Shown: positions 7,223-15,049 of the stretch, piece after piece
Layout: each line of letters opens with the position of its first letter
How positions within the stretch are numbered: the first letter of the stretch is position 1
DNA from: Candidatus Falkowiibacteriota bacterium
GTDB taxonomy: Bacteria > Patescibacteriota > Patescibacteriia > Patescibacteriales > SZUA-104
NCBI GenBank assembly: GCA_003231075.1
Contig: QIIF01000070.1
Location: 1-16,192, forward strand
Reading direction: 5' to 3'
Length of the DNA stretch: 16,192 nt
The notes under the pieces: model-generated
Told to the model about the DNA's origin: nothing
The model's input: the letters and a program-made list of their open reading frames with translations, nothing else
The model's database searches: none
Position numbers and translations under genes: made by a program

Positions 7223-7254
7223 ATATAAAACGAGACCGTAGTCTCGTTTTATAT
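7223..7254. terminator. Convergent bidirectional terminator
   Basis: A perfect 14-bp stem (7223-7236 with 7241-7254) with a CGTA loop sits between two convergent genes. T-rich flanks occur on both strands. It overlaps the stop codon of the DUF169 gene on the - strand (7249-7251) and follows the polyprenyl synthase stop by 13 nt. Confidence 0.85.
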
Positions 7255-7968
7255 TTTATCAACTTTACAAGGAGTGATTTTAGGCTTGTAGCTTCCACTT
7301 GGGCTTTTAGTGAGATTATTTAAAATAATATTAAGATGTTTATATGTTAAAGAAATAATAAGTTTATTTTCCGGCCAAATAAGTTTATTATTTATCTGTC
7401 CCTGACAGTATCTGTCATAGTAGTCAATAAAATTTATATGAGGCATGTTAGTGGCTATTGGCATATAAAAAGAAAGGCATGTTGGTTGGTTGGGCAACAC
7501 TTCCAATTTGTTATAAGTATTATAGTTTAATAGTCCAATAATTCTACTTGCCTGAGCCGGGTCAACCAATAAAATGACAATTTCAGGATTGTCATTTTTT
7601 TTTATAGGCCTAATTACGATTGATTTATTTATTAGTTTCGCAGGAAATTTTGGCACATAGTCTAAAAATTTTTTACAAGTTTTTTTATTTTTAAATACAT
7701 GTTCAGAATTAATATAGATGTCCGCAATTTTTTGTTTTTTTTCTTTAGAAAAATTTAAAAAATAATCAGCCACTTGACAGAGTTGTTTATGGTTATTTGC
7801 ATTAAAAGCAACAGTTTTTCCTTTACAAAAAGCTCTAGCCATGGCGGTGCAGGCTGTATCTTTGTATAAAATAGATTTTTTAGGTATTTTTTTATAAAAA
7901 TAAATACCCAAGATATCGTTCTCTATTTTTAAGATTTTTTTAAATTGTTTTATGGTTTGCATGCTCAT
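7249..7968 (-). CDS. DUF169 family protein (COG2043-like)
   Basis: A 239-residue soluble protein. Family features I recognise are an N-terminal CTAMARAFCKGKTVAF block (about residues 40-55), the central PEIVILLVDPAQASRIIGLL, and a C-terminal ENKLIISLTYKHLNIILNNL matching the usual tail that discriminates and contacts a partner helix. The biochemical role of DUF169 is not established; the proteins are found in archaea and anaerobic bacteria, often with several Cys, and here scattered Cys (about six) are present. The gene lies downstream of the radical SAM gene on the same strand but is separated by a hairpin and has its own promoter. The start at 7968 has no Shine-Dalgarno; ATG 7962 is the alternative. 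It looks more AT-rich and Lys/Asn/Ile-rich than the radical SAM gene, so the two may have separate histories. The family call is by motif recall and not verified. Confidence 0.7.
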   Translation of the reverse strand: MSMQTIKQFKKILKIENDILGIYFYKKIPKKSILYKDTACTAMARAFCKGKTVAFNANNHKQLCQVADYFLNFSKEKKQKIADIYINSEHVFKNKKTCKKFLDYVPKFPAKLINKSIVIRPIKKNDNPEIVILLVDPAQASRIIGLLNYNTYNKLEVLPNQPTCLSFYMPIATNMPHINFIDYYDRYCQGQINNKLIWPENKLIISLTYKHLNIILNNLTKSPSGSYKPKITPCKVDKI

Positions 7969-8061: not shown

Positions 8062-9183
8062 TTACTGCTTATCTTTTTTTAAGTAGCAATTAAGATGAGA
8101 CTCCAAAGGGCAGTTTTTACAGTTCGCAGGAGCCATTTTTTCATGATCGTTTCTAATTTCAGCAGGAATATGCCAGCAGGTAGGACAGGAAGCCCTTGGG
8201 CAGCCGAATTTTAGGGCGGCCTCTCCCCGACATCCTCCACGGCATAGCGAGTAGTGCTCGCATTTTTTACACGGCCCTACTATCCAGTCATCTTGTTCTT
8301 TAAAAACAATCATGCTGTCGTCCGATAATATTTCCTGGAGAGATTTTTTTCTTAAATCTCCATGGCATATATCTTGGGCGCAGCAAGAGTATACTCCGCT
8401 AAAATTTTCCGTGCTAAAGTTTTTTACATGAAGTCCGGTAATAGACATTGTGCATTTCGTGCCGTATGCCGGCGGAGTCAAAACTTTATCAGCAAGATTA
8501 GGATAATGGTTTTTATCCCATATTTGCAGCTCCTCAAAAGTTTTTTTTAATTCTTCCGCGGAAACTGAAAGCTTGCTGGAATGTTCGTTATTCCCTCTGC
8601 GATTAAGCTCAATAAATGGAATATATCCATTTACCCTGCACCATTTGTGAAACTCCATGAGTTTTGGCAGGAACGGCTTTATTGCTACGGCCTCTGCTAC
8701 GATTGTCATGTCTTTCGTTCGCATGGCTTCAATGTTTCTGTAAGCTTCTTGCAGGTTTTTTGCGTATCCTTTCAGCTTTACGTGCTTATCCATCGCTTTA
8801 GCGGCGATTGGAATTAATCCGTGGATAACAATAGTCGTTCCGGGGAGCAATATTTTTTTGCAATATTCTTTGTCAGCCAGCCTAATGCCGTTTGTGCAGA
8901 TAATCGGCGAGAGACCCTCTTTGAGAATCATTTCTGTAAATTCAGGCAGCAGGGGATGCATTGTCGGCTCGCCTCCGATTAGCACAATTTCAGCAAAGCC
9001 GGTTTCCTTAGCTTCTTTAATTATTCTTTTGACAAATTTTGCGGGCATAGGAGCGGCAGCATTGCCAAAAGAGCGATAACAGTTGCCGCATTTTAGTTGG
9101 CACTCCGCTTCTATCTCCAAGGCGAAGCTTTGTAGCTTGCTTTTACCCGTTTCCCTAAAACCATAAAATCCATTTTTTTTCAT
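8062..9183 (-). CDS. Radical SAM / SPASM domain enzyme
   Basis: A 373-residue enzyme expected to bind a [4Fe-4S] cluster and S-adenosylmethionine and to start 5'-deoxyadenosyl radical chemistry. The CxxxCxxC motif is C28, C32, C35 (CQLKCGNCY). IGGEPTMHPLL matches the SAM-binding GGE motif. The C-terminal third has a SPASM pattern: a Cys in YGTKCTMS, a Cys pair in GVYSCCAQDIC, then CKKCEHYSLCRGGC (Cx2Cx5Cx3C), so auxiliary Fe-S clusters are likely. Extra Cys follow (CPRASCPTCW and CKNCPLESHLNC), more than a minimal SPASM needs. AAGGAGG overlaps the stop codon of the small zinc-ribbon gene and lies 5 nt before this ATG, so the two genes are translationally coupled. A T-box leader lies upstream of both. 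SPASM enzymes often modify peptides or proteins; the substrate here is unknown and the neighbouring small protein is a candidate substrate or partner. Confidence 0.9.
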   Translation of the reverse strand: MKKNGFYGFRETGKSKLQSFALEIEAECQLKCGNCYRSFGNAAAPMPAKFVKRIIKEAKETGFAEIVLIGGEPTMHPLLPEFTEMILKEGLSPIICTNGIRLADKEYCKKILLPGTTIVIHGLIPIAAKAMDKHVKLKGYAKNLQEAYRNIEAMRTKDMTIVAEAVAIKPFLPKLMEFHKWCRVNGYIPFIELNRRGNNEHSSKLSVSAEELKKTFEELQIWDKNHYPNLADKVLTPPAYGTKCTMSITGLHVKNFSTENFSGVYSCCAQDICHGDLRKKSLQEILSDDSMIVFKEQDDWIVGPCKKCEHYSLCRGGCRGEAALKFGCPRASCPTCWHIPAEIRNDHEKMAPANCKNCPLESHLNCYLKKDKQ

Positions 9184-9193
9184 TTCTCCTCCT

Positions 9194-9334
9194 TCAGTTG
9201 CTCCAACATTTTAATGGTTTACGCTTAATTTCTACTTTGCATGTTTCGCAAAAGTATATTTTTTTCCCTTCAAGCTCTTTTTCATACGCCTCTGATTTGC
9301 ATTTTGGACACAATATGTAGGGTCGAACTTTCAT
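9194..9334 (-). CDS. 46-residue zinc-ribbon microprotein, first gene of the T-box operon
   Basis: A short gene starting at ATG 9334 with AAAGGAGG just upstream and ending in TGA 10 nt before the radical SAM start. The protein begins MKVRPYILCPKCKSEAY and has two CxxC knuckles, C9/C12 and C29/C32, spaced as in a classic zinc ribbon (FCETCKVEIK for the second). A fifth Cys is followed by Trp near the end (KCWSN). No membrane segment or signal peptide is present. The strong ribosome-binding site, the sensible knuckle spacing and the coupling to the next gene argue that it is translated. It may be a metal-binding partner of the radical SAM enzyme, a nucleic-acid binder, or a Cys-containing peptide substrate; the zinc-ribbon pattern favours a structural metal site. 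I do not recognise a named family. Confidence 0.75.
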   Translation of the reverse strand: MKVRPYILCPKCKSEAYEKELEGKKIYFCETCKVEIKRKPLKCWSN

Positions 9335-9373
9335 TTTTCCTCCTTTATTTTTGTAATGTACATTTTGGGAAAT

Positions 9374-9434
9374 TAAAAACTTCCCGTCTCTTTGCCGATA
9401 CTAAAACAGTATCGGCAAAGGGACGGGAAGTTTT
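9374..9434 (-). terminator. Long intrinsic terminator of the T-box leader
   Basis: Arms 9409-9434 and 9376-9401 pair over 26 positions with one mismatch around a 7-nt loop. On the - strand the stem is followed by a short U-rich stretch. The 5' arm contains CGTCCC, the element that pairs with AGGG of the T-box sequence in the alternative antiterminator. It lies 42 nt before the zinc-ribbon ATG. Confidence 0.92.
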
Positions 9435-9723
9435 GAAAAAATTCACGCGGTGCCACCCTTATTTTGGAACAAAAAAACCGCTATGGAAGGCGACCTTTGT
9501 TCCACTCATCAACTCCTTGTTTTTTTATTCGCATGCGCCCCATTTGTAGCGGGACTTCGCGAAGCGAAAAACATGACATTGATTATCCTATGGTTACGGA
9601 GGATTCCGGGTTTCCACTAACGCAGAAACCACCTTCCCCGCTTTGGCGGGGTAAACCGGACCCAGCCCCGTTCGCCAACCGGCGAATCGGGATCCAGCTT
9701 GTAGGTTTTATGATTTTTAAAGA
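9376..9723 (-). promoter_or_regulatory. T-box riboswitch leader controlling the zinc-ribbon/radical SAM operon
   Basis: Read on the - strand, AAGGGTGGCACCGCG (9460-9446) is the canonical T-box sequence. It is preceded by a stem III (TGGAACAAA at 9504-9496 pairing with TTTGTTCCA at 9473-9465) and followed by CGTCCCTTT, the antiterminator partner that also opens the terminator. In T-boxes an uncharged tRNA 3' end pairs with UGGN and stabilises the antiterminator. Here N is C, which calls for a tRNA with discriminator base G (for example Trp, Asn, Asp, Ser, Gln or Glu). Stem I is obscured: the 5' half contains palindromic repeats, and a stem pairing the region near 9663 with that near 9607 is possible. 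Candidate specifier codons on its 3' side include TCC (Ser) and AAC (Asn), but I cannot assign one. The 5' end is inferred from the promoter. Transcriptional control is clear; the amino acid is not. Confidence 0.88.
9543..9698. repeat. Palindromic repeats inside the T-box leader
   Basis: Three repeat-like units lie in the 5' half of the leader. At 9656-9698 a hairpin has core arms TTCGCC/GGCGAA and outer GGACCC/GGATCC. At 9636-9651 CCCCGC and GCGGGG flank TTTG. At 9543-9564 there is what looks like one half of a larger palindrome with CTTCGCGAAG at its centre. They occupy the place where stem I of the T-box should be. Confidence 0.55.
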
Positions 9724-9730
9724 TATTATT

Positions 9731-9758
9731 AGTTTAACATGTTAAAAAAATATGTCAA
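9731..9758 (-). promoter_or_regulatory. Promoter of the T-box operon
   Basis: On the - strand a perfect TTGACA (9758-9753) is followed after 16 nt by TAAACT (9736-9731, four of six matches). Transcription would start near 9723, giving a leader of about 390 nt before the zinc-ribbon ATG. Confidence 0.6.
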
Positions 9759-9863: not shown

Positions 9864-11252
9864 ATGGCAACAAGGTTAAGGTATTTAGTAATAAGATTGG
9901 TATATTGGCTATGCTGGCCGATAATGTTTTTTATTTTACGATTTTTTACGAAGATGCAAATAATAGGGAAAGAAAATTTAAGGAATATAAGAGGATCGGC
10001 AATTTTTGTTTCTAATCATGAGAGTTATTTTGACCCGTATATAATAGGAGCGAGTATTCCTCTTTTTTCCGCAAATCTATACCCTGTTTATTATCTGACT
10101 CATGATATATTATTTAAAAATAGGTTTTTAAAATTGAGTTTATGGTTTTTTGGAGCTTTTCGCGGAAGAGTCAGCGAGGGAGTTGAAAAAGCGGTTGAGA
10201 AGCCGTTAGAGCTATTACGACAAAGAAAAACTGTTGGTATTTTTTCTAATTGGTGTTATAAAAAAGAACCGGAAATAAGCAGAGTGCAAGAAGTAATTTC
10301 CGTGTTAAGCATTAAAAGCGGAGCGCCCATTATCCCCGTGTTTATATACGGCATTTATAACGGCGGTATTTCATGGAAAAAAATATTTCATCGCGAACGG
10401 GAAATAAAAATTATTTTTGGCAAACCGATATATTCCGATAAAAATATGAGTACAGAAGAGATGACGGAATTATTTCAGCAATCCCTTGCGCGGGCAAAAT
10501 CAACATTAATTAAAATATTTCACGAAAAAGAGAAAAAATTTTGGAGCCATTACGCGAAATTTTATTATCATCTTGAAAAATCAGATCCATATAAAAAGCT
10601 ACTTAGTGATTTTAAAGATAATCTGCCCAAAGAAATTAGCGGAAAATTAATTGATTTAGGAAGCGGTTCCGGCGCTATTGCGCGCTTACTTGTGGAAAAA
10701 TCAAAAGATGCCAAGCTTAAAACGGAGATATTCACTACCGATATAGATCCTTTTATGCTTAATTATCTTTCCGATATTTTTTGTAATGACGAAAATGTAA
10801 AAATAAAAAAAGCTGACTTGGCTTTACCTATTAATTTTCAGGATAATTATTTTAATTGTGTTACCGCCAATCTTGTCTTGCCGTATTTAATACACCATCG
10901 CGGAGAAATCGGCCTAAAAGGATTTATTAAGTTATTAGAGGATATTCATAGAGTTTTAAAACCGGGAGGACATTTCATTTGGTCAAGCCCGAAAAAGAAA
11001 GTAAAATTTTTAAAAGTATTTACAGCTTCATGGAAAAATGTTTTAGATCCAAAAAATTTAGAGCACTTATATTATGGACCGGCTATTTTAAAACAAGCGC
11101 TGCAAATACAACGGAAAGGGTATAAAATCATATATCATTTTTTAGATGTTAAAGAATTAGAGAAAATTCTTATTGATATTGGATTTACGGATATAAAGTT
11201 TACCAAATCAATGGCAGATCAAGTAAATATTATTAAGTGTAAAAAAATATGA
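9864..11252 (+). CDS. PlsC-like acyltransferase fused to a class I methyltransferase
   Basis: A 462-residue two-domain protein. The N-terminal half begins with a hydrophobic segment (LVYWLCWPIMFFILRFF) and has the lysophospholipid acyltransferase motif NHESYFD at 51-57 (NHx4D) and the late APIIPVFIYG. The usual EGTR motif region instead reads VGIFSNWCYKKE (124-135), so acyl-acceptor binding may be altered or lost. The C-terminal half has the SAM-binding DLGSGSG (264-270), an acidic TDIDPF next strand, and the post-core RVLKPGGHF, all typical of class I methyltransferases. The natural guess is membrane-lipid synthesis and modification at the cytoplasmic face. There is no Shine-Dalgarno; start ATG 9864 follows a TATAAT box closely. 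The stop overlaps the histidine kinase ATG by 4 nt, so the two are co-translated. Confidence 0.85.
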   Translation: MATRLRYLVIRLVYWLCWPIMFFILRFFTKMQIIGKENLRNIRGSAIFVSNHESYFDPYIIGASIPLFSANLYPVYYLTHDILFKNRFLKLSLWFFGAFRGRVSEGVEKAVEKPLELLRQRKTVGIFSNWCYKKEPEISRVQEVISVLSIKSGAPIIPVFIYGIYNGGISWKKIFHREREIKIIFGKPIYSDKNMSTEEMTELFQQSLARAKSTLIKIFHEKEKKFWSHYAKFYYHLEKSDPYKKLLSDFKDNLPKEISGKLIDLGSGSGAIARLLVEKSKDAKLKTEIFTTDIDPFMLNYLSDIFCNDENVKIKKADLALPINFQDNYFNCVTANLVLPYLIHHRGEIGLKGFIKLLEDIHRVLKPGGHFIWSSPKKKVKFLKVFTASWKNVLDPKNLEHLYYGPAILKQALQIQRKGYKIIYHFLDVKELEKILIDIGFTDIKFTKSMADQVNIIKCKKI

Positions 11253-14734: not shown

Positions 14735-15049
14735 ATGAGTGATTTTAAATTTGATAAAAAAACAGATGATTTATTTAGGGCGATTTTAAGTTTGGAATCT
14801 GTTGAAGAAGCGGAGGATTTTTTCCGCGATCTTTGCGCTATTGACGAAATTCAAGCGATGTCAATGAGGTGGCAGATCGCCAAATTGGTTTATAGCGGCA
14901 TGCCTTATAAAAAAATCGCCAAGAAACTGGGAGTAAGCGAAGCAAAGGTAAGCCGGGTGGCGGTTTGGGTGTTCCATGGAGAGGGAGGGTATAGGTCGGT
15001 TTTGGATAAAATGCCGAAAGACAGATTATTCAAGATTTTTAAAAAATAA
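14735..15049 (+). CDS. YerC/YecD-type TrpR-fold DNA-binding protein
   Basis: A 104-residue all-helical protein of the TrpR-related YerC/YecD family. The segment FRDLCAIDEIQAMSMRWQIA matches the family's conserved entry helix, followed by the helix-turn-helix region (PYKKIAKKLGVSEAKVSRV, about residues 62-80) and VWVFHGEGGYRSVLDKM near the end. The family binds DNA; in other bacteria it has been studied as a transcription regulator, but its ligand and targets are not generally known. Here it is a single-gene unit with its own TTGACA promoter and a strong terminator. No Shine-Dalgarno is visible. A role in tryptophan control is not implied by the fold alone. Confidence 0.88.
   Translation: MSDFKFDKKTDDLFRAILSLESVEEAEDFFRDLCAIDEIQAMSMRWQIAKLVYSGMPYKKIAKKLGVSEAKVSRVAVWVFHGEGGYRSVLDKMPKDRLFKIFKK

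Follow-up and report, generated by a model that had tools for sequence, protein, structure and literature searches.

A T-box leader on the minus strand of a 16,192-nucleotide (nt) stretch of DNA from a Candidatus Falkowiibacteriota bacterium (contig QIIF01000070.1; the whole stretch is called the window below) is followed by the genes for a 46-residue zinc-ribbon microprotein, a radical SAM/SPASM enzyme, and a DUF169 protein, in this order. Based on sequence comparison, we consider it rather probable that this T-box responds to uncharged tRNA-Trp and turns on the microprotein together with an enzyme–DUF169 system for tryptophan (Trp) starvation. An initial annotation of this DNA had proposed a tRNA-starvation response that yields the radical SAM/SPASM enzyme, a view that appears right, but it overlooked the DUF169 gene, into which the operon very probably extends.

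The T-box leader and its cognate tRNA

The leader (9711-9376; minus strand, as are all operon features) is a real T-box, as initially annotated. It contains the T-box sequence AAGGGUGGCACCGCG (9446-9460) with the acceptor-pairing bulge UGGC at 9455-9452, and its helices covary over 35 leaders of the lineage. In a cmscan search of 691 nt, the whole Rfam model RF00230 aligned to 9711-9416 (E 4.3e-6), although the score of 35.1 bits stayed under the gathering score of 93; when the window was scanned against Rfam, no match reached its gathering score, the leader included. Matches to microRNA families in the leader region fell on the terminator hairpin.

The leader is far more stable than expected by chance (z = -7.1; 0 of 100 shuffles equally stable). 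The stem III region (9462-9510) folds at -15.2 kcal/mol, with 5 of 200 shuffles equally stable. The intrinsic terminator (9434-9376) has 27 pairs and an energy of -43 kcal/mol (z -13.6), which none of 200 shuffles attained. The 5' arm of the terminator contains the antiterminator partner CGUCCC. This assignment holds with respect to sequence conservation, but the energy of the antiterminator is not distinctive (-11.2 kcal/mol, z -1.2), and because 24 of 200 shuffles folded equally well or better, its support comes from the conserved sequence and not from the energy. Upstream, a sigma-70-like promoter (TTGACA, 16 nt, TAAACT; 9731-9758) matches the consensus at 10 of 12 positions. With 3 sites in the scanned region versus 1.6 in shuffles, this is weak by itself, but the placement suits the leader.

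For the 5' domain (9570-9709), we compiled an alignment, A3, of 35 author-chosen leaders from the order, partly re-bounded by hand and excluding a false match (L080) and the loci L010, L055, and L059. The common domain consists of a short stem I, a stem II with an S-turn, and a IIA/B pseudoknot. In A3, 99.1% of the pair cells are paired, with two-sided changes in 20 of 25 pairs, and pairing dropped to 32-60% in controls with slid partners; helices 4 and 7 covary, and helices 5 and 6 are almost invariant. The covariance model R1 built from these rows gives the window leader 120.5 bits, a score that is not independent, as this leader is itself one of the 35.

The stem I bulge of the window leader (9666-9662) comprises the five nucleotides GCUGG, and the alignment column places the specifier codon UGG (Trp) at 9662-9664. 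The same column reads UGG in 34 of the 35 leaders and UGC in one (L118). As rows had partly been picked via a TG[GC]G motif, this constancy arises partly by construction, and the Trp assignment was therefore based on the downstream genes described below. The tRNA-Trp of the window's own genome has the anticodon CCA, which fits the specifier, and a discriminator G73, read by eye, which fits the UGGC bulge. A tRNA-Trp pattern matched in 25 of 31 genomes; 24 of these 25 loci contain a complete gene according to ARAGORN, and all 24 showed G73 by eye. The earlier restriction to tRNAs with discriminator G thus was correct but incomplete, since the tRNA can be named: sensing of tRNA-Trp is well supported by sequence comparison.

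With classic Trp-type T-boxes of RF00230, the leader shares the T-box sequence, a UGGN bulge that matches the discriminator, the stem II S-turn, the IIA/B pseudoknot, the terminator/antiterminator pair, and the UGG specifier. It differs in its stem I, which is short, holds the codon in a 5-nt bulge, and has no recognizable long distal part, as well as in the genes under its control. The Rfam alignment bypasses the distal stem I, and by eye we recognized no distal-loop motif for the tRNA elbow. A long stem I whose distal loops contact the tRNA elbow is missing in some known short T-box types.

The exceptional L118 (725-2403) combines the Trp-type architecture with a UGC specifier and a UGGA bulge, which would match a U73 discriminator such as that of tRNA-Cys. 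Downstream lie the gene for a small, apparently ParB-like protein and a gene of the cystathionine beta-synthase/cysteine synthase family (473 bits, cut-off 510), and L118 is a probable Cys T-box.

Trp T-boxes and zinc-ribbon microproteins in the order

At E 0.01, T-box matches occurred in 84 of 111 genomes of the order, yet only 2 of the 111 had matches above the Rfam cut-off, and this cut-off is therefore too strict for the lineage. A control search at E 1 also gave matches in two genomes where T-boxes were not expected. The genome of the window, G000 (858 kb in 193 contigs, 80.7% complete), has one match. The initial annotation had considered T-boxes to be uncommonly reported in this lineage. 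With respect to reports this agrees with our literature search, which yielded none connecting T-box riboswitches with Patescibacteria, the Candidate Phyla Radiation, or tryptophan in candidate phyla, but the elements themselves are common. Nor did the search yield a report on riboswitches and tryptophan in Patescibacteria, and the papers listed for radical SAM and T-box riboswitches look unrelated by their listing. According to excerpts of a 2008 survey, most T-boxes belong to Firmicutes, while Actinobacteria, Chloroflexi, and Deinococcus/Thermus have some and Proteobacteria two (PMC2494555); the T-box database TBDB, as excerpted, spans 3,632 species (PMC7778990).

We collected 141 T-box loci, mainly those fetched for the matches in the 111 genomes (25 + 100), plus further loci, L034, and the window; the motif script used did not capture every match of the genome scan. 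By script, 51 had a Trp-type stem I and 89 another type, and one was dropped because its flank was too short. The genes behind the Trp-type T-boxes were trpS (10), trpB (6), TrpB-like (trpB2; 5), and trpD-like (3), with 27 unassigned, whereas the others preceded thrS (56), aspS/asnS (18), glyS (4), and trpS (1), with 10 unassigned. Trp-type genes thus follow 24 of 51 Trp-type T-boxes but 1 of 89 others, and the leader of this one (L114) lies close to a contig end. Known errors of the script are L055, L059, and L170, which belong to the 10 unassigned non-Trp loci although R1 recognizes all three, and L036, whose T-box was missed as its core deviates. With one gene sampled each, trpS, trpB, and TrpB-like exceeded their NCBIfam cut-offs, and trpE (486 of 518 bits) and trpD (148 of 199 bits) remained below. 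The acceptor-pairing bulge is UGGA in 56 of 56 thrS leaders and UGGC (26) or UGGU (25) in the 51 Trp-type leaders, the discriminator having been compared for the tRNA-Trp of G000.

The microprotein of the window (9194-9334; CPKC...CETC) is the 46-residue two-knuckle zinc ribbon of the initial annotation. It matches no Pfam family over the cut-off (best E 9e-5). We infer its translation; it has a ribosome-binding site, AAAGGAGG, a homolog, and an enriched class. The homolog, also of 46 residues and behind a T-box, is found in G001, a genome of the same genus, beside a 79.5% identical polyprenyl synthase; the other flank is not common to both, and the corresponding locus of G001 contains neither a radical SAM nor a DUF169 gene. 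In the locus collection, zinc-ribbon-like frames of 34-145 residues that start at most 400 nt from the T-box follow 21 of 51 Trp-type T-boxes versus 1 of 89 others (Fisher 4e-10), or 21 of 54 versus 1 of 86 after reclassing the three R1-recognized loci (Fisher 2e-9); as the criteria for the Trp class, the microprotein, and the tandem-Trp (WW) leaders were set after examples had been seen, the Fisher values in this study are descriptive. The single non-Trp case is again L114, upstream of trpS. A G[WF]G motif occurs in 16 of the 21 microproteins (shuffled mean 1.1, maximum 5), and the window microprotein has CWSN at this place. In two genomes, a common 70-residue microprotein shows one difference in 213 nt, yet the leaders agree at just 311 of 398 columns. 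The best explanation is that the microprotein is an older component of the Trp T-box units in this lineage.

Other T-box loci of the order deserve mention. In patescibacterial thrS, aspS, and glyS T-boxes (L041, L043, L045, L053, L065, L094, and others), a very short hairpin seemingly presents the codon ACC, GAC, or GGC in its loop. In L010, L014/L085, L059, and L111, the gene directly behind the T-box encodes a conserved protein of about 265 residues, three of these loci being Trp-type by script and L059 by R1; the L014 copy had no NCBIfam match. The Trp-type T-boxes of L040 (by script) and L055 (by R1) precede a dehydrogenase and then a gene that reads as an aminotransferase; the L040 dehydrogenase, the one tested, had tryptophan dehydrogenase ScyB as its best NCBIfam match (318 of 600 bits, below the cut-off). 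The three T-boxes that exceed the Rfam cut-off (L003, L004, and L039) have GNAT-type acetyltransferases downstream, as read by eye, an unusual target.

The radical SAM/SPASM enzyme, DUF169, and their tryptophan controls

The enzyme (8062-9183, 373 residues) is, as initially described, a Cys-rich radical SAM protein (PF04055 45.3 bits, cut-off 29.5) and probably of the SPASM type, its match to the SPASM family PF13186 lying just below the cut-off (20.8 versus 21.5 bits). Over 36 sequences, its family shows 43 invariant columns, of which 14 are Cys, and these include C28, C32, and C35 of the radical SAM motif CxxxCxxC. Structural matches cover residues 4-341, and in those alignments the enzyme is 14-18% identical to the maturases SuiB, anSME, and PqqE. 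Against the 25 NCBIfam families listed, scores lay far below the cut-offs, the best match having 60.5 bits versus 500. Database matches to a Kuenenbacteria protein with 65% identity and to proteins labeled Magasanikbacteria, Gracilibacteria, and Peregrinibacteria give G000 the look of a patescibacterial genome. The 14 closest full-length homologs (56-66% identity) were seen as protein sequences only. The DUF169 protein (7249-7968, 239 residues; PF02596 E 5.9e-26, 92 bits, cut-off 27) is the probable partner of the enzyme: the two genes adjoin in 7 of 7 core loci, which are the window and the homologous loci L028-L033, and their reading frames, counted from the first start codon, overlap in L029, L031, L032, and L033. 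By the same search, no DUF169 gene was found in the more distant relatives L034-L036. In the literature and databases searched, we found no known function for this radical SAM family or for DUF169. Between the two genes of the window, a 12-bp inverted repeat (8049-8014, ATATGGAGGCGA) with one G-U pair and without a U-run could modulate DUF169 expression.

The initial annotation regarded homologous operons without the T-box and terminator as evidence against its proposal. None of the six core homologs (L028-L033) has a T-box, but upstream of five of them (L029-L033), a frame with tandem Trp codons is followed by a terminator, an arrangement seen for 3 of 386 controls (Fisher 4e-9; the 392 units of the set were reading frames of at least 130 residues from either strand, among them spurious ones). 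Of the three control matches, two belong to loci with a Trp T-box or TrpR (L068 and L142). As the T-box-free homologs thus mostly have a different Trp-sensing leader, the link to Trp is strengthened. A TrpR-like gene lies immediately upstream in L028 and L029 (65.3 and 61.4 bits versus the TrpR cut-off of 67.25), and the tail of this gene provides the Trp codons in L029. The minimum-energy folds of the L030, L032, and L033 leaders show alternative pairing, and those of L029 and L031 do not. In Escherichia coli, trpL is the trp leader-peptide attenuator and controls trpEDCBA. The L029-L033 leaders resemble it in their tandem UGG codons and terminator, but they precede the radical SAM–DUF169 pair instead of trpEDCBA. 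In the distant relatives L034 and L036, a Trp T-box lies downstream of the enzyme (in L036 with 52.1 bits by Rfam), and the surroundings of L036 include trpS-type and tRNA-Trp genes. Left out of the counts were L216 (G789), whose radical SAM protein belongs to another family; L205-L208, identical to L030, L031, L029, and L032; L038, with the same matches and scores as L033; and L213-L215, on contigs as long as those of L028, L035, and L036.

Two neighbors in the window were also noted. An acyltransferase–methyltransferase fusion (9864-11252) is divergent from the T-box operon, and a TrpR-related gene of the YerC/YecD type lies on the opposite strand, 5 kb from the operon (14735-15049). TrpR-family genes occur in 28 of the 111 genomes, with 26 over the cut-off; the window's copy scores as YerC/YecD.

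Mechanism, alternatives, and significance

Upon Trp shortage, uncharged tRNA-Trp would accumulate and bind the leader, pairing its anticodon CCA with UGG and its acceptor end, GCCA, with UGGC. Binding would stabilize the antiterminator and permit read-through into all three genes. Together, the enzyme and DUF169 would then form a Trp-starvation system whose most likely benefit is that the cell can obtain Trp or manage when it is scarce; candidate roles are salvage, the freeing of Trp that is modified or bound in peptides, and an unrecognized synthesis step. Tryptophan synthase beta was not seen in two enzyme-bearing genomes, G000 (incomplete, as noted above) and G360, in each of which a single match to the pyridoxal phosphate enzyme fold was read by eye as another enzyme, and the pair may therefore serve salvage or an unknown route. 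The role in Trp shortage is the best explanation because the homologous pairs are regulated by Trp through other devices.

Several points weigh against this reading. Besides the low Rfam score of the leader and the motif-based choice of alignment rows, 30 of 51 Trp-type T-boxes lack a microprotein by script, DUF169 had no fold match, L028 lacks a tandem-Trp leader, the L029 and L031 leaders retain the terminator by minimum energy even with the Trp codons covered, and L035 shows no Trp element. Among the core-family members whose DNA was read, the window enzyme is the only one with a T-box, and as G001 has the T-box and microprotein without it, the enzyme is a variable part of the unit.

The same observation in G001 favors the idea that the T-box serves the microprotein alone, the enzyme–DUF169 pair being an inserted passenger reached by chance read-through, and the enzyme was indeed found at E 1e-15 in 0 of 97 other genomes searched. 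However, homologous pairs elsewhere have their own Trp controls of a different kind, so that landing behind a Trp T-box by random insertion would be coincidental, and we regard this as improbable. Somewhat less unlikely, but still clearly behind a role in Trp supply, is a peptide maturase that acts on the Trp-bearing microprotein or another small peptide, with Trp starvation inducing a modified peptide for signaling, competition, or import. The microprotein itself recalls anti-TRAP, a 53-residue zinc ribbon of Bacillus subtilis that, according to excerpts of PMC11255114, is induced through an uncharged tRNA-Trp T-box, and the layout of a Trp T-box followed by a small zinc ribbon equals that of rtpA. 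That it is a true anti-TRAP, freeing trp mRNAs from TRAP, is nevertheless very improbable. TRAP (PF02081) was over the cut-off in 0 of the 111 genomes, with two weak matches inside long frames, and the window microprotein had no anti-TRAP among its PDB sequence matches up to E 10. The sequences also differ, most of the microproteins (not the window's) have G[WF]G, and other genes follow. Its target must therefore differ from TRAP, and by analogy, the predicted microprotein is probably a starvation-induced regulator or accessory that acts in an anti-TRAP-like mode.

Returning to the Trp-starvation system, a more far-reaching version, which we offer tentatively and as possible rather than likely, is that the pair is an unrecognized Trp supply route of host-dependent Patescibacteria without tryptophan synthase, subject to several independent Trp controls (T-box, ribosome-mediated attenuation, and probably TrpR) and complemented by the G[WF]G microproteins as a TRAP-free, anti-TRAP-like layer.

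Three unrelated Trp controls around the enzyme pair, namely the T-box, the tandem-Trp leaders in other lineages, and the TrpR-like genes at two loci, are a strong functional pointer for this radical SAM family and DUF169. T-boxes are common in a group for which the searched literature does not mention them, with codons in a stem I bulge (Trp and Cys) or apparently in the loop of a small hairpin (Thr, Asp, and Gly), and a class of zinc-ribbon microproteins linked to Trp T-boxes is defined. The operon thereby offers a concrete way into the question of how Patescibacteria that apparently lack tryptophan synthase handle Trp shortage.
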